This document shows, piece by piece, positions 1,252 to 11,145 of a stretch of 64,000 bases of DNA. The stretch covers positions 62,001-126,000 of the forward strand of contig NZ_JBBEOG010000008.1 of the NCBI RefSeq assembly GCF_037860835.1, read 5' to 3'. Made by a program: the position numbers and the translations under genes. Source of the stretch: Aquipuribacter nitratireducens. GTDB lineage: Bacteria > Actinomycetota > Actinomycetes > Actinomycetales > JBBAYJ01. Under the pieces are notes generated by a model. That model made no database searches. It worked only from the letters and a program-made list of their open reading frames with translations, and was not told the origin of the DNA. The stretch's first letter is position 1; each line of letters begins with the position of its first letter.

Positions 1252-2925
1252 GTCCGCGGGTGTCCGCAGCCGGAGCCAGCGGTAGCCGTAGCCGGCGAGC
1301 GGCACCTCGACGCGTCCGTCGTCACCGATGGGCACGTGGCTGCCGTCGAGGAGGTCGGTGAGGTAGCCGTCGTGCTCGTCGTCGGCGAAGGACACCTCGA
1401 CGGTCACCGGCACGTCGTCGAAGGCGTGGAGCGCGAGCATGACCTTCTCCTCCCACCGCATGACGTGCGCGAGCACGTGGTCGTGCCCGGTGTCGAGCAC
1501 CTCGATGTCGCCCCAGCCGAGCTCCGGGGACTGCCGGTAGCGCCGGGCGAGGTGGGAGACGAAGGCGAGGAAGGAGTCCGGGTCGTCGACCTGGTCGGCG
1601 ACGTTGACGTGCTCCGGCCCGTAGGCGCCGGTCGTCACGGGGTTCGGCAACCGGTCCGGCTCGGCCCGGGAGAAACCGCCGTTGACCTTGCTGCTCCACT
1701 GCATGGGGGTGCGCACCGCCTGGCGCCCCTCGACGTCCAGGTTCTCCCCCATCCCGATCTCCTCACCGTAGAAGAGGACGGGCGTGCCGGGCAGGCTGAA
1801 GAGGAGGCTGTACGCCATGCGCAGCCGGCGCTGGTCGCCGGCGGGGTCCTCCCCGAGCATGGGCGGTAGCCGCCGGCGCAGCCCGCGCCCGTACAGCTGC
1901 ATCTCCGGCTCCGGGCCGAAGGCGTCGAAGACCTCCTGCCGCTCGGCGTCGCTCAGCTTGTCGAGGGTCAGCTCGTCGTGGTTGCGCAGGAACGTCGCCC
2001 ACTGGGAGCGCGCCGCGATGCCGGGCCGGGCCCGCAGCGAGTCGGCGAGGACGCGCGCGTCGTGCCGGGCGAGCGCGAGGTACGTGTGCTGCATGCCGAC
2101 GAAGTCGAACTGCATGTCGAGCTCGTCGCCGTCGTGCCCGCCGAAGTAGTGGCACTGCTCGTCGCGGGGCAGGTTGACCTCCCCGAGCATGATCGCCCCG
2201 CCGTGCCGCCGGGACAGGAACTCGCGCAGGTACCGGAGGAAGTCGTGGGGGTCCGGCGCGTGCCCGTGCCCGTCGGTGGTGTCGGGGTTGACGAGGAACG
2301 GGACGGCGTCGACCCGGAACCCCGACACACCGAGCTCGAGCCAGAACCCCATGACCTTCGTGATCTCGTCGCGGACGGCCTCGTTGCCGACGTTGAGGTC
2401 GGGCTGGTGGCGGTAGAAGCGGTGGAGGTACCACTCGCCGCTCGCCTCGTCCTTCGTCCAGATGCCGTCCTCCTGGTCGGGGAACACGACCTCGTCGGAG
2501 GTGTCGGGCGGGGGGTCCGAGCGCCACACGTAGTAGTCGCGGTGCGGGGAGTCCGTGCCCCGCAGGGCCGAGCGGAACCACGGGTGGTCGGCGGAGGTGT
2601 GGTTGACGACGAGGTCGACGATGACCCGCATCCCGCGCTCGCGGGCCATCCGCACGAGCGGCGGGACGTCGCCGAGGCTGCCGAGGCGGTCGTCGACGCC
2701 GTACCAGTCGGTGATGTCGTACCCGTCGTCGCGGTCGGCGGTCGGGTAGAAGGGCATGAGCCACAGGCAGGTGACGCCGAGGTCGGCGAGGTGGTCGAGC
2801 TTGCGGACCAGCCCGACGATGTCGCCGCACCCGTCCCCGTCGCTGTCGTAGAAGGTCTCGACGTCGCAGCAGTAGACGACGGCGTTCTTCCACCAGAAGT
2901 CCGCCTGGGCGGCCGTGCTGCTCAT
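1237..2925 (-). CDS. alpha-amylase family glycoside hydrolase (GH13, trehalose-synthase-like)
   Basis: 562 residues with a complete GH13 catalytic core and no signal peptide, so it acts in the cytoplasm on alpha-glucans or trehalose-type sugars. Conserved regions are DLVVNHTSADH (about 104-114), FRVDAVPF with nucleophile Asp206, LGEVNLP with acid/base Glu249 and RNHDELTLD with Asp317. The N-terminal WWKNAVVYCCDVETF and DGYDITDWYGVDDRLG resemble the trehalose synthase/isomaltulose synthase branch, but a usual TreS is about 570-600 residues and carries a partner maltokinase that is not seen here. Its ATG overlaps the stop of the upstream LLM oxidoreductase gene by four bases (ATGA), so the two are translationally coupled. 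The exact substrate is inferred only loosely. Confidence 0.8.
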   Translation of the reverse strand: MSSTAAQADFWWKNAVVYCCDVETFYDSDGDGCGDIVGLVRKLDHLADLGVTCLWLMPFYPTADRDDGYDITDWYGVDDRLGSLGDVPPLVRMARERGMRVIVDLVVNHTSADHPWFRSALRGTDSPHRDYYVWRSDPPPDTSDEVVFPDQEDGIWTKDEASGEWYLHRFYRHQPDLNVGNEAVRDEITKVMGFWLELGVSGFRVDAVPFLVNPDTTDGHGHAPDPHDFLRYLREFLSRRHGGAIMLGEVNLPRDEQCHYFGGHDGDELDMQFDFVGMQHTYLALARHDARVLADSLRARPGIAARSQWATFLRNHDELTLDKLSDAERQEVFDAFGPEPEMQLYGRGLRRRLPPMLGEDPAGDQRRLRMAYSLLFSLPGTPVLFYGEEIGMGENLDVEGRQAVRTPMQWSSKVNGGFSRAEPDRLPNPVTTGAYGPEHVNVADQVDDPDSFLAFVSHLARRYRQSPELGWGDIEVLDTGHDHVLAHVMRWEEKVMLALHAFDDVPVTVEVSFADDEHDGYLTDLLDGSHVPIGDDGRVEVPLAGYGYRWLRLRTPADDRLA

Positions 2926-3926
2926 GGGGCGACCACCGTCCGCTGCGGCGCCACGGGGGCGGGCGGGGTGACGTCGAGCTGCGGCAGGACCCGCTCGCCG
3001 TAGGTGTCGACGAAACCGCGCTGCTCCTGCCCGACGTGGTGGACGGCGATCTCGTCGAAGCCGAGCCCCGCGAGCTCGTGGAGCCACGCCGCGTGCTGCT
3101 GGGGGTCGGAGGACACGAGGACGGTCCCGCGGACGGCGTCGGGGGTGACGTGCTCGGCGACGGCGTCGAAGTGCTCGGGGGTCTCGAGGTCCCAGCAGAC
3201 GGGGGGCGGGAAGACGTTGGTGCGCCACTGCTCGTGCGCGAGCCGGAGCGCCTCGTCCTCCGTGGGGGCCCACGACACGTGCACCTGCAGCCGGAGGGTC
3301 CCCACCCCGCCCGCGTCCCGGTATGCGGCGACGAGGCGGCGCAGGACCTCCGGTTCCTGGTTGACCGTGACGAAGCCGTCGGCCCACGTGCCGGTCCACG
3401 CGGCCGTCGCCTCGCTGACGGCGGCCCCGACGAGCGCGGGCGGCACGTCGGGCCGGGTCCACAGGACGGCCCGGTCGACGCTGACGAGCCCGTCGTGGCT
3501 CACGGTCTCCCCGGCGAGGAGCCGGCGGATGACGTCGACGCACTCGCCGAGACGCCGGGTGCGCAGCTCCTTGCGCGGCCACTCCTGTCCGGTGATGTGC
3601 TCGTTGGAGTTCTCACCGGTCCCGAGCGCGACCCACAGCCGCTGCGGGAACATCGCCGACAGCGTCGCCATCGCCTGTGCCACGACGGCCGGGTGGTAGC
3701 GCTGGCCGGGGGCGTTGACGACGCCGAAGGGCAGCGACGTCGTGGCGAGCGCTGCGCCGAGCCACGACCACGCGAAGCCCGAGTGGCCCTGCCGGACGCT
3801 CCACGGCGAGAAGTGGTCCGACGACATGCCGAAGGTGAAGCCCGCCTGCTCCGCCAGCTGCACGGCGTCGAGGAGGGCGGTGGGGTGGACCTGTTCGTGG
3901 GAGGCGTGGAACCCGATCGCGACCAT
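2922..3926 (-). CDS. LLM-class flavin-dependent oxidoreductase, TIGR03885-like
   Basis: 334-residue TIM-barrel protein of the bacterial luciferase-like superfamily. The opening MVAIGFHASHEQVHPTAL, the segment SSDHFSPW and QGHSGFAWSWLGAAL are characteristic of the subgroup annotated as TIGR03885, described as probable non-F420 flavin oxidoreductases. WVALGTGENSNEH is the phosphate-binding type segment seen in the family. Start is the ATG before VAIGFHASHEQ; the longer in-frame extension is arginine-rich and lacks family similarity. It precedes and overlaps the amylase gene by four bases, so they form a two-gene operon. Cofactor (FMN or F420) and substrate are unknown. Confidence 0.8.
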   Translation of the reverse strand: MVAIGFHASHEQVHPTALLDAVQLAEQAGFTFGMSSDHFSPWSVRQGHSGFAWSWLGAALATTSLPFGVVNAPGQRYHPAVVAQAMATLSAMFPQRLWVALGTGENSNEHITGQEWPRKELRTRRLGECVDVIRRLLAGETVSHDGLVSVDRAVLWTRPDVPPALVGAAVSEATAAWTGTWADGFVTVNQEPEVLRRLVAAYRDAGGVGTLRLQVHVSWAPTEDEALRLAHEQWRTNVFPPPVCWDLETPEHFDAVAEHVTPDAVRGTVLVSSDPQQHAAWLHELAGLGFDEIAVHHVGQEQRGFVDTYGERVLPQLDVTPPAPVAPQRTVVAP

Positions 3927-3978: not shown

Positions 3979-5070
3979 TCAGCCCGACGCGGCGACGACG
4001 AGCCGACCGCCGCCGGCCTCCTTCGCGGCGTACATCGCGCCGTCGGCGCGGGCGAGGAGCCCCTCGACACCGCCGTCGCCGCAGCACCACGCCACCCCCA
4101 TGCTCGTCGTGACCGTCAGCCCCGCGACCTCGATGGTCGACAGGCGCCGGCCGATCCGCTCGGCGACCTGCTGCGCGGTCACCGCGTCGAGGGGTCCCGG
4201 CAGGAGGACGGCGAACTCGTCCCCCGCGATCCGCAGCGGCACGTCGCCCTCGCGGACGCTCGCGCGCAGCGCGTCGGCGACGGCGAGGAGCACCTCGTCG
4301 CCGCGGGCGTGCCCGTGCGTGTCGTTGACCACCTTGAAGTCGTCGACGTCGAGGTAGAGCAGCGCCCCGCCGCTGCGGCTGGTCCCGGCGGCGGCCCGCT
4401 CGAGCACGGTGCGGTTGGCGAGGCCGGTGAGCGGGTCGGTGCGGGCGAGTGCGTCGAGGCGCCGCAGCGCGTCGTCGAGCCGGGCGGAACGCCACGCGAT
4501 GACCTCACCGGTCACCACGTAGAGCGGGAGGGCGTAGGTGACCGTCCACGCGGCGTACGCCGGTGCGTCACCGAGGAGCAGCGGGACGACGTACGCGACC
4601 GCCGCGAACGGCGCCATGAGGGCCGCGGTGCCACGCGGGTGCCACAGGCCGATCCACACGAAGAGCAGGAGGAAGAACGCGCCGTAGCGGTAGGCGTCGG
4701 CGGCCGCGACGTAGTTGTGGACGCCGATGAGCGCGAGACCGACCGGGACGAGGGCGAGGGTCCAACGGAGGTCGACCCGTCGCCACGGCAGCAGCGCGAC
4801 CACGCCGGACGTGAGGAGCGTCGCGGCCGCGACCCAGCGGACCTCGGTGACGTCGAGGCCCGCCGGTGAGGGCACGACGGTCGACAGGAACGTGAGGACC
4901 CCCGAGGCGAGACCGATGACGCAGAGGCTGAGAGCCGCTCCCCGCGCGGTCCGGGAGGCACGGCGGAGCAGCGACCCCGACCACCTGCGCCGCGGCGCGC
5001 GCTGCGACTGCCCCACGTCGGCCCTATCGGCACGTCGGTCCCCCGGGTCAAGGCCGGGGTAGGACCTCAC
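3979..5070 (-). CDS. membrane-anchored diguanylate cyclase with AGDEF active site
   Basis: 363 residues. The N-terminal half has about five to six hydrophobic segments (roughly 46-66, 78-95, 104-116, 128-145, 150-168, 172-190), then a GGDEF domain from TDPLTGLANR (211-220) to the C-terminus. The signature reads AGDEF (282-286) rather than GGDEF, a variant found in active cyclases. YLDVDDFKVVND supplies metal-binding Asp residues. REGD at 273-276 lies exactly five residues before AGDEF, matching the RxxD product-inhibition I-site. It should make c-di-GMP from two GTP at the membrane. The GTG start lacks a good ribosome site and may be a few codons further in. It sits 15 bases downstream of the HATPase/methanogen-output gene, suggesting one operon. 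Confidence 0.87.
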   Translation of the reverse strand: MRSYPGLDPGDRRADRADVGQSQRAPRRRWSGSLLRRASRTARGAALSLCVIGLASGVLTFLSTVVPSPAGLDVTEVRWVAAATLLTSGVVALLPWRRVDLRWTLALVPVGLALIGVHNYVAAADAYRYGAFFLLLFVWIGLWHPRGTAALMAPFAAVAYVVPLLLGDAPAYAAWTVTYALPLYVVTGEVIAWRSARLDDALRRLDALARTDPLTGLANRTVLERAAAGTSRSGGALLYLDVDDFKVVNDTHGHARGDEVLLAVADALRASVREGDVPLRIAGDEFAVLLPGPLDAVTAQQVAERIGRRLSTIEVAGLTVTTSMGVAWCCGDGGVEGLLARADGAMYAAKEAGGGRLVVAASG

Positions 5071-5085
5071 CCGCGCGGGGCGCCG

Positions 5086-6117
5086 TCAGGCGGGGTGCTG
5101 GTAGCGGTGCGTGTACGGCGCGACACCTGCGGGGGGCTCCCCGAGGAACACGACGACCCGGCACCCCGGGTCGCCGAGGGCGATCCGTTCCTCGAGCAGC
5201 ACGCCGGCCCCCTCGGGGCTGTTGCGCGCGGCGATGCCCCCGAAGACGCTCGACGTCATGCGGCACAGCGCGGGCGCGGACTGCACCGCCCGTCCGAACG
5301 GGCAGCGGTCGTTGACGAGGACGACCTTGTCGGACGCGACCTCGACGACGGTGAAGCCGCCCTCGATGGCGTGCTTGAGGCGCACGTAGCAGTCGGCGAT
5401 CTGCTCGGGCGTCAGCCGCCCGACGACCTGCTGCGCGGCCCGGTACGCCTCCTCCATGCGCCCGCCGACGTCGGCGCCGACCTGCGCGACGGCGGCCTCC
5501 GCGGCGTCCGGGCCGTGCTGGAAGTCGACGGCGTGGGCCAGCTGCACGACGAGGGCGCGGAGGAACGGCTCCTTGCCGAAGGAGCCGTCCGGGTTCGCGT
5601 CCTCCGGGAGCGGCAGCGCCCCGACGCTGCGCCGCGGCGGGTCGTGGCTGAGGACGTCGCGCTTCTTCACCGGCAGCACGGCGCTCACGACCATGCCGCC
5701 GTGGTCGCGGACGCTCGCCTCGAGGCTCTCGCTGAGCGTCGCGACGAGGAACAGGCCCCGGCCGCTCTCCCCCATGAGCAGGCGCTCGGCCTCGTCGAGG
5801 TCGTCGAGCCAGTCGGGACCGGCGACCGTGTCCGGGGCGCGGTCGAGGGGCGCCCTCCGGACCTCGCCGAGCAGGGCCGGGTCGAAGCCGGGACCGAGGT
5901 CGAGCACCCGGATGGTCGGGGACAGCTCCTGCCACGTCAGCGACACCCAGACGGGACCGCCGGCGTGCTTGACGGCGTTGGACACGAGCTCCTCGACGAC
6001 GAGCTCGGCGTCGGCGACCTCGGCGCCAGGCGCGGCGTGGCGCGCGAGGTAGGCGCCGACCTCGTGGCGCAGCTCACGCAGCGCCCGGCCGTCCCCCCCG
6101 CTCAGGTACCAGTCCAC
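5086..6117 (-). CDS. HATPase (anti-sigma-kinase-like) fused to a methanogen output domain
   Basis: 343-residue two-domain cytoplasmic protein. Residues about 10-150 form a GHKL ATPase of the RsbW-like kind, with the N-box EELVSNAVKHAG (Asn near 47), DLGPGFDP (73-80) and ESGRGLFLVATL (117-128). The C-terminal part, about 180-340, contains NDRCPFGRAVQSAPALCRMTSSVFG, here cited in pieces: CPFGRAV (272-278) and CRMTSSVFGG (285-294), the cysteine-bearing segment typical of the methanogen output domain (V4R-related). The pairing suggests that ligand or redox sensing controls a phosphorylation or partner-binding output. GTG start with CACACT six bases upstream looks leaderless. It is directly upstream of the diguanylate cyclase. 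Its biochemical role is inference. Confidence 0.75.
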   Translation of the reverse strand: MDWYLSGGDGRALRELRHEVGAYLARHAAPGAEVADAELVVEELVSNAVKHAGGPVWVSLTWQELSPTIRVLDLGPGFDPALLGEVRRAPLDRAPDTVAGPDWLDDLDEAERLLMGESGRGLFLVATLSESLEASVRDHGGMVVSAVLPVKKRDVLSHDPPRRSVGALPLPEDANPDGSFGKEPFLRALVVQLAHAVDFQHGPDAAEAAVAQVGADVGGRMEEAYRAAQQVVGRLTPEQIADCYVRLKHAIEGGFTVVEVASDKVVLVNDRCPFGRAVQSAPALCRMTSSVFGGIAARNSPEGAGVLLEERIALGDPGCRVVVFLGEPPAGVAPYTHRYQHPA

Positions 6118-6171: not shown

Positions 6172-6549
6172 TCACTGGTCGAGGTCGAGCCCGTGGGTGG
6201 TCCGCAGGTGGGCGATGTCGTCGTGCCGGTCGCCGGTGGTGGCGGTGCCGCGAGGCTCGAGCATGAGGATCCGGGTGCCCTCGGCGGCGCGGGGGAAGTG
6301 CTCGGCGCCCCTCGGCACCGTGAAGACGTCCCCCGGGTCGAGCACGACGGTCCGGTCGCGCAGCTCGATGGTGAGGCGTCCGGCGAGGCAGAGGAAGAAC
6401 TCGTCCGTGTCGTCGTGGGCGTGCCACGCGTGGTCGCCGGCGACCTTCGCGATGCGGACGTCGTAGTCGTTGACGCGGCAGACGACGCGCGGTTCCCAGT
6501 GCTCGTCGAACCGCTCGAAGGCCTCGTCGAGGTTGAGGGGCTGGTCCAC
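6172..6549 (-). CDS. cupin-domain protein
   Basis: 125-residue single-domain cupin. The metal-binding motif 1 appears as HAWHAHDDTDEFFLCLAG (about 40-57) and motif 2 as PGDVFTVPRGAEHFPRA (about 72-88), giving the usual His-His-Glu-His ligand set. Small stand-alone cupins of this kind often bind a metal and act in sugar, polyketide or stress metabolism, but the substrate cannot be read. The GTG start has TACGCT seven bases upstream and no ribosome-binding site, so a leaderless mRNA is likely. The gene lies between the HATPase/MetOD gene (55 bases away) and a DinB-like gene (40 bases away) on the same strand, and shows no functional link to either. Confidence 0.8.
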   Translation of the reverse strand: MDQPLNLDEAFERFDEHWEPRVVCRVNDYDVRIAKVAGDHAWHAHDDTDEFFLCLAGRLTIELRDRTVVLDPGDVFTVPRGAEHFPRAAEGTRILMLEPRGTATTGDRHDDIAHLRTTHGLDLDQ

Positions 6550-6589: not shown

Positions 6590-7189
6590 TCAGCCGCTGA
6601 GGCCGGCGGCGCGCCGAGCGGCCGCCTCGACGCGGGACACGTGGGCGGCGCGCGCGTCGGCGCCCGACGTACCGAGGTTGTCGTTGCCCGGCCGCAGCCC
6701 CGCCGCCCCGTCGACGCCCTCGCGGAGGACGTCGGCGTGCCCGGCGTGGCGGTGGGTCTCGGTCGCGACGTGGACGAGGACCAGGTGCAGCGTCACGCCC
6801 GAGCGGTCGCCCCACCACGGGACGTCGCCCGCGGCGTCGAGGTCGAGCGCGGCGACCGTCGAGTCCGAGTGCGCCCACACGCGCCGGTACAGCGCGACGA
6901 GGTCCTCCCGCGGCTCCTCCGCCGTCGCCCACATGTCGGCCTCGGGCTCGTCGTGGAGCATCCACGCGGGGGGGTCGGGGAACGGTCGCCCGAAGACGAG
7001 GCCGAAGTAGCCGGCCTCGACGCCCGCGAGGTGCTTGACGAGACCGAGCAGGTTGGTGCCGGTCGCCGTGAGGGGGCGGCGGACGTCGTACTCGCCGAGG
7101 CCGTCGAGCTTCCACAGGACCGCCTCGCGGCCTGCCTGCAGGTACCGCTGCAGCGTGTCCTTCGGGTCGTCGTCCTCGGGTCCTGTCAT
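6590..7189 (-). CDS. DinB/DUF664-like protein
   Basis: 199 residues resembling the DinB-like four-helix superfamily (DUF664 branch). Features are LQRYLQAGREAVLWKLDGLGEYDVRRPLT cited in part as LQRYLQAGREAVLWKL, then LGLVKHLAGVEAGYFG with one conserved His, and HVATETHRHAGHADVLRE near 150-167 with further His residues. Three histidines in these positions make up the family metal site. Many actinobacterial members are thought to be thiol-dependent transferases using mycothiol or bacillithiol, but this member's substrate is unknown. The start was set at the ATG preceded by GGGAGGACACCGCC, removing a 19-residue upstream extension. Confidence 0.75.
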   Translation of the reverse strand: MTGPEDDDPKDTLQRYLQAGREAVLWKLDGLGEYDVRRPLTATGTNLLGLVKHLAGVEAGYFGLVFGRPFPDPPAWMLHDEPEADMWATAEEPREDLVALYRRVWAHSDSTVAALDLDAAGDVPWWGDRSGVTLHLVLVHVATETHRHAGHADVLREGVDGAAGLRPGNDNLGTSGADARAAHVSRVEAAARRAAGLSG

Positions 7190-7294
7190 GGCGGTGTCCT
7201 CCCTGGGAACAGCGCCGCTCCCAGCGCGAAGCGTAGGACCGGCCACCGACGGCGCGAGGGCCTTGGCGCCCGTCGGGGCGTGGCCGGGCTCGAA

Positions 7295-8415: not shown

Positions 8416-11145
8416 ATGCGCGGGAGCGCCCGGCTCGTCGGCCGGGACGAGGAGCTGCGACGGATCCAGGTCATGCTGACCGCCGCACGCAACGGCCGCG
8501 GTGGTGCGCTGCGGGTGGTGGGGGACGCCGGCATCGGGAAGACGGCTCTCCTCGACGCGGCCGTCGCGGCCGCGGGTGACGCGTGCGTCCTGCGGACCGC
8601 CGGCTACGAGGCCGAGGCGAGCATCCCCTTCGCGGCGGTCCAGCGGCTCGTCATCCCGTTGCACCCGTATATGACGTCCCTCGCCGACCGCCACGCCACG
8701 GTGCTCCGGATCATGGCAGGCGACCTCGAGGGCCCACCGCCCGAGCGCTTCCTCGTCGCCCTCGCCCTCCTCGACCTCCTCTCGTCCGCAGCCGACCGGG
8801 CACCCGTGCTGTGCGCTGTCGACGACGCGCACGCCCTGGACGCGGAGTCCGCCGACGTGCTCGGGTTCGTGGGCCGCCGCCTCGGGGCCGACCCCGTCGT
8901 CGTCCTCATCGCCTCGCGGGAGGAGAACGGCATCGCCGCCCGTCTCGCGGGGCTCCCGTCCCTCCCCCTCTCCGGCCTCGACGCGGACAGCGGTCGCCGG
9001 CTGCTGGGGCTGGCCCTCGACGAGCCGCTCGACCCCGCCGTCGCCGTCCAGGTGGTCCGTGCCACCGGAGGCGTCCCGCTCGCGCTCGTCGACCTCGCCA
9101 CCGAGCTGTCGAACCGTCAGCTCGAGGGGCGCGGCCTCGACGACGCCCCGCTGCCCATCGGACGGCACCTGGAGGAGCACTACCTGTCGCGGGTGCGCGG
9201 CGAACCGCGGCACGTGCAGGACTGGCTCCTGGTGGCCGCGGCGGAGTCCGCCGGCTCGCCGGTCCTCGTCGCCGCGGCGGCTGACGCGCTCGGCATCCCA
9301 CCGGGTGCCGTCGACGACGCCGAGGCCGGCGGTCTGGTGACCGTCGACGACGTCGTCCGCTTCCGTCACCCGCTGGTGCGATCGGCCGTCTACAACGGGA
9401 CGACCGGGGACCGGCGCCGGAGCGTGCACGCCGCCCTGGCAGGGGCCGCGGCCCGGCTCGCCCTCGTCGAGGTGGAGGCGTGGCACGCCTCGCACGCCGT
9501 GACCGGCCACGACGACGCCGTCGCGGACCGCCTGGAGCACGCGGCCGACCTCGCCGCCCGCCGCGGGGGCCTCTCGTCGAGGGCGACGGTCCTCGCGCGC
9601 GCGGCGGAGCTGACGACCGACGGCGCCGCCCGGGACCGCCGCTACGTCGCGGCAGCCGAGGCGGCGCTCGAGGTCGGCGCCGCCGGGGTCAGCGCCGACC
9701 TGCTCGCCAGGAGCGGGAGCGGCCGGAGCGACCCGGTGACCCGCGGGCGCGCGGCCCTGGTCGGCGCCGCCCTCTCGCTGTTCGCCGCCGACCCCGAGGT
9801 CGTCCACGCCGCCGCGCGGCTCGGTGGAGCGGCCGACCTCCTCCACGGAGCCGACGGGGGGCTCGAGCACACCGCGCTCCTGCGCGCCTTCGAGGCCTGC
9901 CTCGTGACCGAGCACTGCGCCGAGGGCTTCTCGCTCGACGAGCTCGGCCGCCGGCTCGAGGCCGCGGGCGACGCACCCGGGCCGATGGCCGCGTTGCTGC
10001 GGGGGCTCGGCGCACTCGTCCGCCGCCCCTACGCCGAGGCCGTCCCGGTGGCGCGCGCAGCCCTCGACAGCCTCCACCACCTGCCCGACGAGCGGCTGGT
10101 CCACCTCGGATCCGCGTCGGTGGCCCTCGCGACGTTCCTGTGGGACGTCGAGGCGAGGACGGTCCTGCTGACCCGCGCCGCCAGGACCGCGCGGGACGCC
10201 GGCGCCCTGCAGGCCCTCGACACCCTCCTCTGGCTCATGGCGTCGACCGAGCCGCACGGCGGCACGGTCCGGCGGGCGCACGAGCGGCTCGACCAGCTGC
10301 GTGAGGTCCGACGCTCGATGGGCTACGACACCGAGCAGGTCGTCGACGGCGGCATCCTCGCGTGGTCGGGCGCCCGCGAGGCCGCGCTCGCCGTCGCCGC
10401 CGGCGCCGAGGCGGTCGGCTTCGGCGGTGTCACGACCCTCGCCCTCGGGGCGACCGCGACACTCGACATCGCGCAGGGCCGCTACCGCGACGCGTACGAG
10501 CGGCTCGCACCCCTCGTCGCGGCGCCGTTCCTCCAGGCCACGCCGACGCGCTACGCCGACTTCGTCGAGGCGGCGTCACGCAGCGGGCACACCGCGGACG
10601 CCGAGGCCGTCGCCGAGGTCCTCCGAGGGCTCGCGGACGCCAACGGGTCGGCGTGGTGCCGGGGGGTCGCCCTGCGCTCGCTCGCGCTCGTGACGGAGGG
10701 CGACGCCGCCGAGTCGGCGTTCCGGGAGGCCGTCAGCGCGCTCCGGACGACGCCGGCCGTCATGGACCTCGGTCGGGCGCACCTGGTCTACGGCGAGTGG
10801 CTGCGCCGGGCGCGGCGCCGGCGGGAGGCCCGCGACGAGCTCGGGGCGGCCGTCGACCTCCTGCGTGGGGCCGGCGCCGACATCCTGCTGCCGCGGGCGC
10901 AGGCAGAGCTCGAGGCACTCGGCGGGGCCCCCGTGACGACGTCCGAGGACCCGCTCGCCGGTCTCAGCGCCCGAGAGCTCGCCGTTGCGCGTCTCGCCGG
11001 CGCGGGGCGCACGAACGCGGAGATCGGCGACCGGCTGTTCATCAGCCGCAACACCGTCGACTACCACCTGCGGAAGGTCTTCCAGCGCCTCGGCATCTCC
11101 TCCCGCCGACAGCTCGCGGACCTCCTCGCCGACCGCCGTGCCTGA
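8416..11145 (+). CDS. large ATP-binding LuxR-family (LAL/MalT-type) transcriptional regulator
   Basis: 909 residues, the usual size for LAL regulators. An N-terminal AAA-type ATPase has Walker A GDAGIGKTALL (36-46) and Walker B VLCAVDDAHALD (131-142). A long helical repeat region follows, and a C-terminal LuxR helix-turn-helix reads GLSARELAVARLAGAGRTNA then ISRNTVDYHLRKVFQRLGIS (about 845-900). Such proteins bind ATP and an inducer in the cytoplasm and activate nearby genes, often for catabolism or secondary metabolism. Two alpha/beta hydrolase genes follow on the same strand after an 87-base gap and are the natural candidate targets. The inducer is unknown. Confidence 0.92.
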   Translation: MRGSARLVGRDEELRRIQVMLTAARNGRGGALRVVGDAGIGKTALLDAAVAAAGDACVLRTAGYEAEASIPFAAVQRLVIPLHPYMTSLADRHATVLRIMAGDLEGPPPERFLVALALLDLLSSAADRAPVLCAVDDAHALDAESADVLGFVGRRLGADPVVVLIASREENGIAARLAGLPSLPLSGLDADSGRRLLGLALDEPLDPAVAVQVVRATGGVPLALVDLATELSNRQLEGRGLDDAPLPIGRHLEEHYLSRVRGEPRHVQDWLLVAAAESAGSPVLVAAAADALGIPPGAVDDAEAGGLVTVDDVVRFRHPLVRSAVYNGTTGDRRRSVHAALAGAAARLALVEVEAWHASHAVTGHDDAVADRLEHAADLAARRGGLSSRATVLARAAELTTDGAARDRRYVAAAEAALEVGAAGVSADLLARSGSGRSDPVTRGRAALVGAALSLFAADPEVVHAAARLGGAADLLHGADGGLEHTALLRAFEACLVTEHCAEGFSLDELGRRLEAAGDAPGPMAALLRGLGALVRRPYAEAVPVARAALDSLHHLPDERLVHLGSASVALATFLWDVEARTVLLTRAARTARDAGALQALDTLLWLMASTEPHGGTVRRAHERLDQLREVRRSMGYDTEQVVDGGILAWSGAREAALAVAAGAEAVGFGGVTTLALGATATLDIAQGRYRDAYERLAPLVAAPFLQATPTRYADFVEAASRSGHTADAEAVAEVLRGLADANGSAWCRGVALRSLALVTEGDAAESAFREAVSALRTTPAVMDLGRAHLVYGEWLRRARRRREARDELGAAVDLLRGAGADILLPRAQAELEALGGAPVTTSEDPLAGLSARELAVARLAGAGRTNAEIGDRLFISRNTVDYHLRKVFQRLGISSRRQLADLLADRRA

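Follow-up and report, generated by a model that had tools for sequence, protein, structure and literature searches.

An RsbW-type ATPase joined to a MetOD1 domain in Aquipuribacter nitratireducens: a candidate ligand-sensing partner-switching kinase

Does an RsbW-like ATPase encoded directly upstream of a membrane GGDEF protein control the synthesis of cyclic di-GMP (c-di-GMP), or does it address other partners? The question is raised by a 64,000-nucleotide stretch of the Aquipuribacter nitratireducens genome (the window, which is the whole stretch analyzed; contig C8:62001-126000 of genome G000, 3.8 Mb in 26 contigs). The genes concerned, both on the minus strand, are P1 (5086..6117; 343 amino acids, GTG start), which encodes a HATPase_c_2-MetOD1 protein, and P2 (3979..5070), which encodes a membrane GGDEF protein. 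An earlier note, made from the sequence alone, had described them as a signaling unit in which P1 may sense a ligand or redox state and govern the cyclase encoded by P2. Both genes are indeed present as open reading frames (ORFs) on the same strand, and their codon usage also marks them as coding; Pfam matches and homologues further identify P1. We consider P1 to be, with somewhat better than even confidence, a ligand-sensing one-component partner-switching kinase of new architecture. The computed evidence comprises two fold resemblances, a conserved ATP site, a conserved set of three cysteines and one glutamate, an excess of SpoIIE genes nearby, and no linkage to GGDEF genes seen beyond the genus; the metal, the ligand, the kinase activity, and the target are inferred.

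Two domains in one protein

The N-terminal part of P1 (residues 1-155; 5653..6117, minus strand) is a GHKL ATPase domain of the RsbW/SpoIIAB type, matching HATPase_c_2 at 54.6 bits against a Pfam cut-off of 27.4. Residues E43, N47, D73, G75, and G119-R120-G121 are present in all 42 aligned rows, and the N box and the ATP-site motifs (DxG and GRG) are intact. An AlphaFold2 model built from the 42 rows had a mean predicted local distance difference test score (pLDDT) of 84.6 and a predicted template modeling score of 0.62; because the latter is modest, the relative placing of the domains is uncertain. Residues 1-152 of the model resemble the folds of RsbW, UsfX, and SpoIIAB (Z 13.2-14.7, root-mean-square deviation (rmsd) 1.9-3.0 over 102-124 residues), with RsbW (6m36_G) at the top (Z 14.7, rmsd 1.9 over 102); SiaB falls within the same range of Z, and Foldseek also lists RsbW, TRAPP, and MopR for the P1 model. 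Searching for solved relatives by sequence gave nothing convincing, no histidine-kinase dimerization domain was reported by Pfam at E <= 1, and P1 has a single match in its own genome at E <= 0.001. The RsbW-like ATPase recognized in the earlier note is thus backed by the intact N box, the ATP-site motifs, and the fold match.

The C-terminal part (residues 171-343; 5089..5607, minus strand) matches MetOD1 (PF18546) at 46.4 bits against a cut-off of 23.8. With all architectures taken together, 36 of the phylum's 396 genomes contain this family, 32 of them over the cut-off, and a 2025 paper lists its function as unknown (PMC11784639). The CPFG...C segment that had been proposed as the sensing site is present (C272 and C285), and a third cysteine, C319, goes with it. 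C272, C285, and E310 occur in 42 of 42 rows and C319 in 41, the remaining row (L046) ending before that position; in a broader set of rows spanning Actinobacteria, Proteobacteria, and Bacillus-type bacteria, the three cysteines are kept in 19 of 19. Residues 172-338 of the model resemble the sensor domains of PoxR, MopR, and DmpR, at Z 12.4-13.1 and with rmsd values of 2.9-5.3 across 143-159 positions (for PoxR 5frx_A, Z 13.1 and rmsd 5.3 over 159; for DmpR 6iy8_C, Z 12.8 and rmsd 3.1 over 150), and TRAPP Bet3-type subunits match the same residues at Z about 12. Iterative searches have tied MetOD1 to HNOB, V4R, and ATC hydrolase, and its three cysteines have been described (Galperin et al. 2018, PMC5847659); the fold of our model supports the V4R-MetOD1 link from a different direction. 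The zinc ligands of DmpR are Cys151, Glu172, Cys177, and Cys185 (PMC7264223), and P1 has the same residue types, Cys and Glu, at a different spacing (cysteines at 272, 285, and 319). Sensing of a ligand or redox state through the CPFG...C segment is therefore plausible in view of the V4R-like fold and the conserved cysteines and glutamate; the output onto the GGDEF protein that the earlier note attached to it fared worse, as described below.

In the mechanism we favor, P1 would be a soluble protein in which the cysteines and glutamate of the V4R-like MetOD1 domain probably coordinate a metal, with zinc expected. Binding of a small molecule to MetOD1 would bring the fused RsbW-like serine kinase/anti-sigma domain into another state, and that domain may in turn bind or phosphorylate a STAS antagonist encoded elsewhere. 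A SpoIIE (PP2C) phosphatase, encoded next door in several relatives, would reverse the action of P1.

Neighbors of P1 in related genomes

To follow the pair through relatives, 396 genomes of the order were searched with P1 at E <= 1e-15; in the P1 and cyclase genome searches, at most five first-look candidates were scored per genome. Seven genomes matched, five of them over the full length (the window genome, G001, G024, G234, and G394) and two, G064 and G106, over the ATPase part only. G001, which belongs to the same genus, keeps both the adjacency and the order of P1 and the cyclase (78% and 74% identical, respectively), and the series P1, cyclase, luciferase-like gene runs as in the window, the luciferase-like homologue being 84.6% identical; of the cupin and mycothiol-S-transferase (MST)-like genes that precede P1 in the window, neither turned up in the 14.8 kb around P1 in G001. 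The third genome available for the genus, G002, appears to have no full-length P1, the scoring of all 19 candidates having given one weak match of 50 residues; none of the 5 cyclase candidates scored there, out of 53, matched at E <= 1e-30. The pair is thus adjacent in two of the three available genomes of the genus, and neither gene was found in the third. G024 has orthologues of P1 (C16:233136, 57%) and of the cyclase (C20:44726, 53%) on separate contigs, with no P1 among the genes called in the 14 kb around the cyclase. Another genus contributes five genomes (G009, G086, G114, G142, and G156) with homologues of the cyclase at 45-47% and no P1 match at E <= 1e-15.

Outside those genomes, we found at least 41 further P1 loci (L025-L065; one genome per species scanned) in Actinomycetes, Acidimicrobiia, Solirubrobacteraceae, and Conexibacter. 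The number is a lower bound, as a locus had to contain either of two peptide patterns and, out of 189 relatives, the best 80 were kept; L030 and L029 come from G234 and G394, respectively, and these genomes are counted once. About 6 kb of flank was available on both sides of P1 in only 20 of the 41 loci, and five (L031, L046, L061, L063, and L064) have less than 1 kb on one side. SpoIIE, STAS, and GGDEF genes in the flanks were each sought with one BLAST query at E <= 1e-3, whereas the expected values come from more sensitive profile counts over whole genomes (for GGDEF, 63 of about 80 candidates were scored in two genomes). On the flank sides available, a GGDEF gene lies directly beside P1 in none of the 41 loci. 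The flanks contain one GGDEF gene in all, the second gene in L039 and on the opposite strand; with 1.17 expected, this is no excess. GGDEF matches were present in 41 of 45 genomes (those of the 41 loci together with the window's, G001, G002, and G024); the four without are the metagenome-assembled genomes of L026, L027, and L064 and the isolate genome of Nocardioides flavus (L065). We therefore rejected P1-P2 as a conserved unit, given the separation in G024, the 41 loci, and the 4 of 41 genomes lacking GGDEF matches. The expectation that related genomes would keep the pair does not hold beyond its own genus, where alone adjacency was seen, and control of c-di-GMP synthesis by P1 through P2 finds little support, as the neighborhoods in relatives do not single it out. 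P2 is most likely a genus-level neighbor in a same-strand run and not a dedicated output of P1.

SpoIIE genes, by comparison with expected numbers derived from each genome's own SpoIIE count, are enriched around P1: they occur in the flanks of 8 of the 41 loci (L030, L036, L041, L048, L059, L060, L061, and L062; 0.62 expected) and as the immediate neighbor in 5 (L030, L036, L059, L061, and L062; 0.12 expected). According to Pfam, the neighbor in L030 is a GAF-GAF-SpoIIE gene 49 bases downstream of P1, those in L059 and L061 are same-strand PAS/GAF-SpoIIE genes that follow P1 after 3 and 5 bases, and that in L036 is a PAS-GAF-SpoIIE gene divergent from P1; in L062 the SpoIIE gene is downstream with no intervening gene. 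On a tree with all 42 rows labeled, from which the partial P1 loci L063 and L064 were omitted although they are counted among the 41, SpoIIE adjacency falls on three separate branches and takes three changes, each of them required by branches with good support; these may also be one gain and two losses. The presence of any SpoIIE gene in the flanks takes four. STAS matches were found in 6 of 41 flanks (L036, L038, L041, L060, L061, and L063; the query was taken from L063 and the expected number was not computed), and in L063 the STAS gene is the convergent next gene. All 45 genomes have SpoIIE, the P1-less G002 included, and its presence alone says little; the window genome has 13 SpoIIE matches and 6 STAS_2 matches, 4 of the latter over the cut-off. 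The gene caller was rough in GC-rich DNA, so that some neighbor strands are probably miscalled, and it made no P1 call at four loci (L027, L038, L043, and L062). In several Acidimicrobiia-type genomes, genes that resemble parts of ABC-2 transporters, as judged by eye from the called proteins, also lie beside P1, upstream in L037, L041, L046, and L060 and downstream in L048 and L063.

The membrane cyclase and its gene run

P2 matches GGDEF at 110.2 bits against a Pfam cut-off of 23.8, and both its active site, AGDEF at ORF residues 282-286, and its inhibitory RxxD I-site at ORF residues 273-276 are intact. In the model (mean pLDDT 71), six N-terminal helices are predicted ahead of the GGDEF domain (22-45, 56-75, 83-103, 105-125, 130-148, and 152-190, numbered from a start at 5016), mostly with pLDDT 55-75, and no Pfam family name applies to the membrane part. 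By motif and model, P2 is predicted to be a diguanylate cyclase held in the membrane by six helices, its catalytic and inhibitory motifs both intact. One of its more distant homologues, in G142 (L112:4775-7686), shares 4 bases with a GGDEF-EAL gene, possibly a cyclase/phosphodiesterase pair.

The longest ORF of P2 (363 amino acids) begins with GTG 5070 and puts its start 15 bases after the P1 stop, the distance given in the earlier note. The N-terminal part of this ORF aligns poorly with that of the sister species G001, in which the cyclase, as called, starts 71 bases past the P1 stop, and the GTG at 5016 is preceded by AGGG. On these sequence features GTG 5016 is the likelier start, leaving a putative spacer of 69 bases (5017..5085, minus strand); the 15-base gap holds for the longest ORF and is probably an artifact of start choice. 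A simple scan showed no terminator-like site in the spacer, at 0.5 in shuffles of the scanned 5 kb and hence uninformative, and a promoter scan gave no site, equally uninformative with 0.0 in shuffles.

Both genes belong to a run of six on the same strand, from 7246 down to 1237. It begins with a gene for an MST (PF04978) protein (6590-7246; Pfam 156.6 bits), followed by a cupin gene (6172..6549, minus strand) upstream of P1, and continues after P2 with a luciferase-like oxidoreductase gene (2922..3926, minus strand) and an alpha-amylase gene. Successive gaps measure 40, 54, 15 or 69, and 52 bases, and the last two genes share 4 bases (2922-2925), which suggests their translational coupling. 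Because the whole run is tightly spaced, the short gap between P1 and P2 does not mark out this pair; the choice of start and the other short gaps led us to discard the 15-base gap as evidence of coupling. Farther along, on the plus strand, the window encodes a large AAA_16-GerE (LuxR-type) regulator of 909 amino acids (8416-11145).

Related systems and rival explanations

P1 shares with RsbW, SpoIIAB, and UsfX the fold, the N box (E43/N47), the DxG and GRG motifs, and, in some relatives, SpoIIE or STAS neighbors. It differs from them by the added C-terminal sensor domain, by a window in which neither STAS nor SpoIIE was matched, and by scores below the NCBIfam cut-offs. The V4R domains of DmpR, MopR, and PoxR are like residues 172-338 in fold and in having three cysteines and one glutamate, but their output is an AAA+ domain, whereas that of P1 is a GHKL kinase, and the cysteine spacing differs. 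The MetOD1 domain of P1 carries the three-cysteine cluster of the published family; in methanogens MetOD1 has been described alone or with REC or REC-PAS (Galperin et al. 2018), whereas in P1 it is joined to an RsbW-type ATPase. Like SiaABCD of Pseudomonas aeruginosa, the locus encodes a GHKL kinase together with a diguanylate cyclase; unlike there, no SpoIIE-type (SiaA-like) phosphatase gene was found in the window, and P2 has six predicted N-terminal helices and stays below the SiaD cut-off. SiaC (PF09345) had 0 matches in G000, in a search in which no control genome gave a match either, eight methanotroph, nitrifier, and related genomes included. RsbW-type kinases also sit inside multidomain proteins in the RsbA family (NF041045) and in Rv1364c, whose kinase part (3ke6_B) matches P1 at Z 12.2, but with other partner domains: RsbA carries a MEDS sensor domain, and NF041045 matched P1 over the ATPase part only, at 41.2 bits against 210.

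Outside Actinobacteria, MetOD1 occurs in a different setting. The two proteobacterial proteins scanned with Pfam (L069 and L090) are MetOD1-Sigma54_activat-HTH_8, in which MetOD1 occupies the place that V4R has in DmpR, and the AAA+ part of other MetOD1 activators was detected by BLAST; these sigma-54 activators occur in methanotrophs, Nitrosomonas, Nitrosospira, and Thiohalocapsa. Stand-alone MetOD1 proteins occur in Fictibacillus and Bacillus (L068 and L080). Out of 39 MetOD1-only loci (L066-L104), we excluded four, L068 and L080 for having no AAA+ part and L075 and L089 for too little upstream DNA; L098, within the remaining 35, ends before the AAA+ part. A divergent carbonic-anhydrase-like gene (26 loci) and/or DUF938 gene (20 loci) lies within 1.4 kb in 33 of the 35. 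The -24/-12-like motif TGGC-N7-TTGC is present on the strand of the divergent gene in 18 of the 33 intervals against 0.26 expected from first-order Markov shuffles, a count to be read as descriptive, as the motif was fixed after inspecting the loci and related species repeat the same motif. This conserved divergent gene offers a direct route to the MetOD1 ligand. A guess at the ligand from the carbonic-anhydrase-like neighbors could not be applied to the window, as G000, G001, G002, and G024 gave no match to the 90-residue query at E <= 1e-8, although 24 of 45 genomes did.

Several observations weigh against a partner-switching kinase that senses a ligand. P1 stays below the cut-off of every NCBIfam model for RsbW or RsbA (for RsbW, NF003144 scores 15.6 against 145 bits and TIGR01924 14.9 against 155.05), and a common fold, here that of a model, would not prove kinase activity or a ligand. 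In largely helical folds, Z scores of up to about 13 may reflect a common arrangement; the MetOD1 sequence profile matched no PDB chain at E <= 10, so that the fold and the work of Galperin et al. 2018 are what ties MetOD1 to V4R. E310 is present in only 1 of 9 proteobacterial rows and 0 of 2 Bacillus-type rows, so that the glutamate belongs to the actinobacterial branch; because most proteobacterial rows lose it, we lowered our confidence in the favored explanation slightly. With loci taken as independent, P is about 1e-7 for each SpoIIE excess, values that overstate the association because three of the five adjacent cases (L059, L061, and L062) form one clade, and 33 of 41 loci show no SpoIIE gene in the flanks available. 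Within the window there was no SpoIIE match (one tblastn query, E <= 1) and no STAS match, which makes any naming of P1 partners there guesswork; most P1 genes, that of the window included, are without a visible partner.

The alternatives concern either the target of P1 or the nature of its sensor. Regarding the target, P1 might act as in a SiaABCD-like circuit, the sensor-gated protein controlling the neighboring cyclase, either by direct action or via a small partner that becomes phosphorylated, with the ligand setting c-di-GMP output. SiaB phosphorylates SiaC, thereby shutting down the cyclase SiaD (PMC8457831, PMC7647112); SiaB (6kko_B) is among the fold matches of P1 (Z 13.7, rmsd 3.0 over 131), G001 keeps the adjacency and order, and one of the STAS_2 matches of the window genome could be such a partner. 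We nevertheless judge this circuit improbable: P1 and the cyclase are unlinked in G024, the 41 loci show no GGDEF gene beside P1 on the flank sides available, no flank excess (1 against 1.17), and four genomes with no GGDEF match, and cyclase homologues exist without a P1 match at E <= 1e-15 in five genomes of another genus. The luciferase-like gene, moreover, is conserved in the same block, and therefore plain synteny suffices, and the SiaD model NF038266 scores P2 at 115.8 bits against a cut-off of 290. Rather unlikely, too, is an RsbT-like role, in which the GHKL domain of P1 would bind and activate an adjacent SpoIIE phosphatase with no phosphorylation of an antagonist, much as RsbT activates RsbU through binding (PMC12143880). 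It would account for SpoIIE as a recurrent direct neighbor, downstream in L062 and only 3 and 5 bases downstream in L059 and L061, but the best-scoring folds are RsbW, UsfX, and SpoIIAB, the four neighboring phosphatases scanned have PAS and/or GAF domains of their own, and no SpoIIE gene lies beside P1 in the window.

Regarding the sensor, MetOD1 could be a redox or metal switch, or an ATC-hydrolase-like enzyme, and not a small-molecule sensor, with the cysteines changing state and the kinase reporting it. The three cysteines, kept in 19 of 19 diverse rows while the glutamate is not, would fit, as would the enzymatic activity related to ATC hydrolase proposed by Galperin et al. 2018 (PMC5847659) and a match of the L062 homologue to ATC_hydrolase at 20.4 bits, under the cut-off of 28.1. 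Yet the fold and the domain position of MetOD1 resemble those of phenol-sensing domains, the ligand pocket of DmpR sits apart from its zinc site (PMC7264223), and no heme-binding family was reported for P1 (Pfam, E <= 1), and we regard such a switch or enzyme as unlikely, if worth bearing in mind. As a long shot, MetOD1 may be an input module of the V4R type that has moved between output domains in evolution, becoming attached to sigma-54 activators in methanotrophs and nitrifiers but to RsbW-type kinases in Actinobacteria, with the kinase in the window's genus additionally rewired to the membrane cyclase into a ligand-gated c-di-GMP circuit that has no SiaA or SiaC parts.

The portions of the open-licence literature searched do not describe a fusion of an RsbW-type kinase with MetOD1, and no paper on RsbA/MEDS or V4R-RsbW was found there. 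Multidomain RsbW-type kinases and V4R sensors are already known; the joining of such a kinase to MetOD1 appears to be new. In the best-known forms of partner switching, such as RsbU/RsbW/RsbV, sensing is done by the phosphatase branch. If P1 is the ligand-sensing partner-switching kinase that we favor, the switch-point kinase of such a pathway would sense a small molecule itself.

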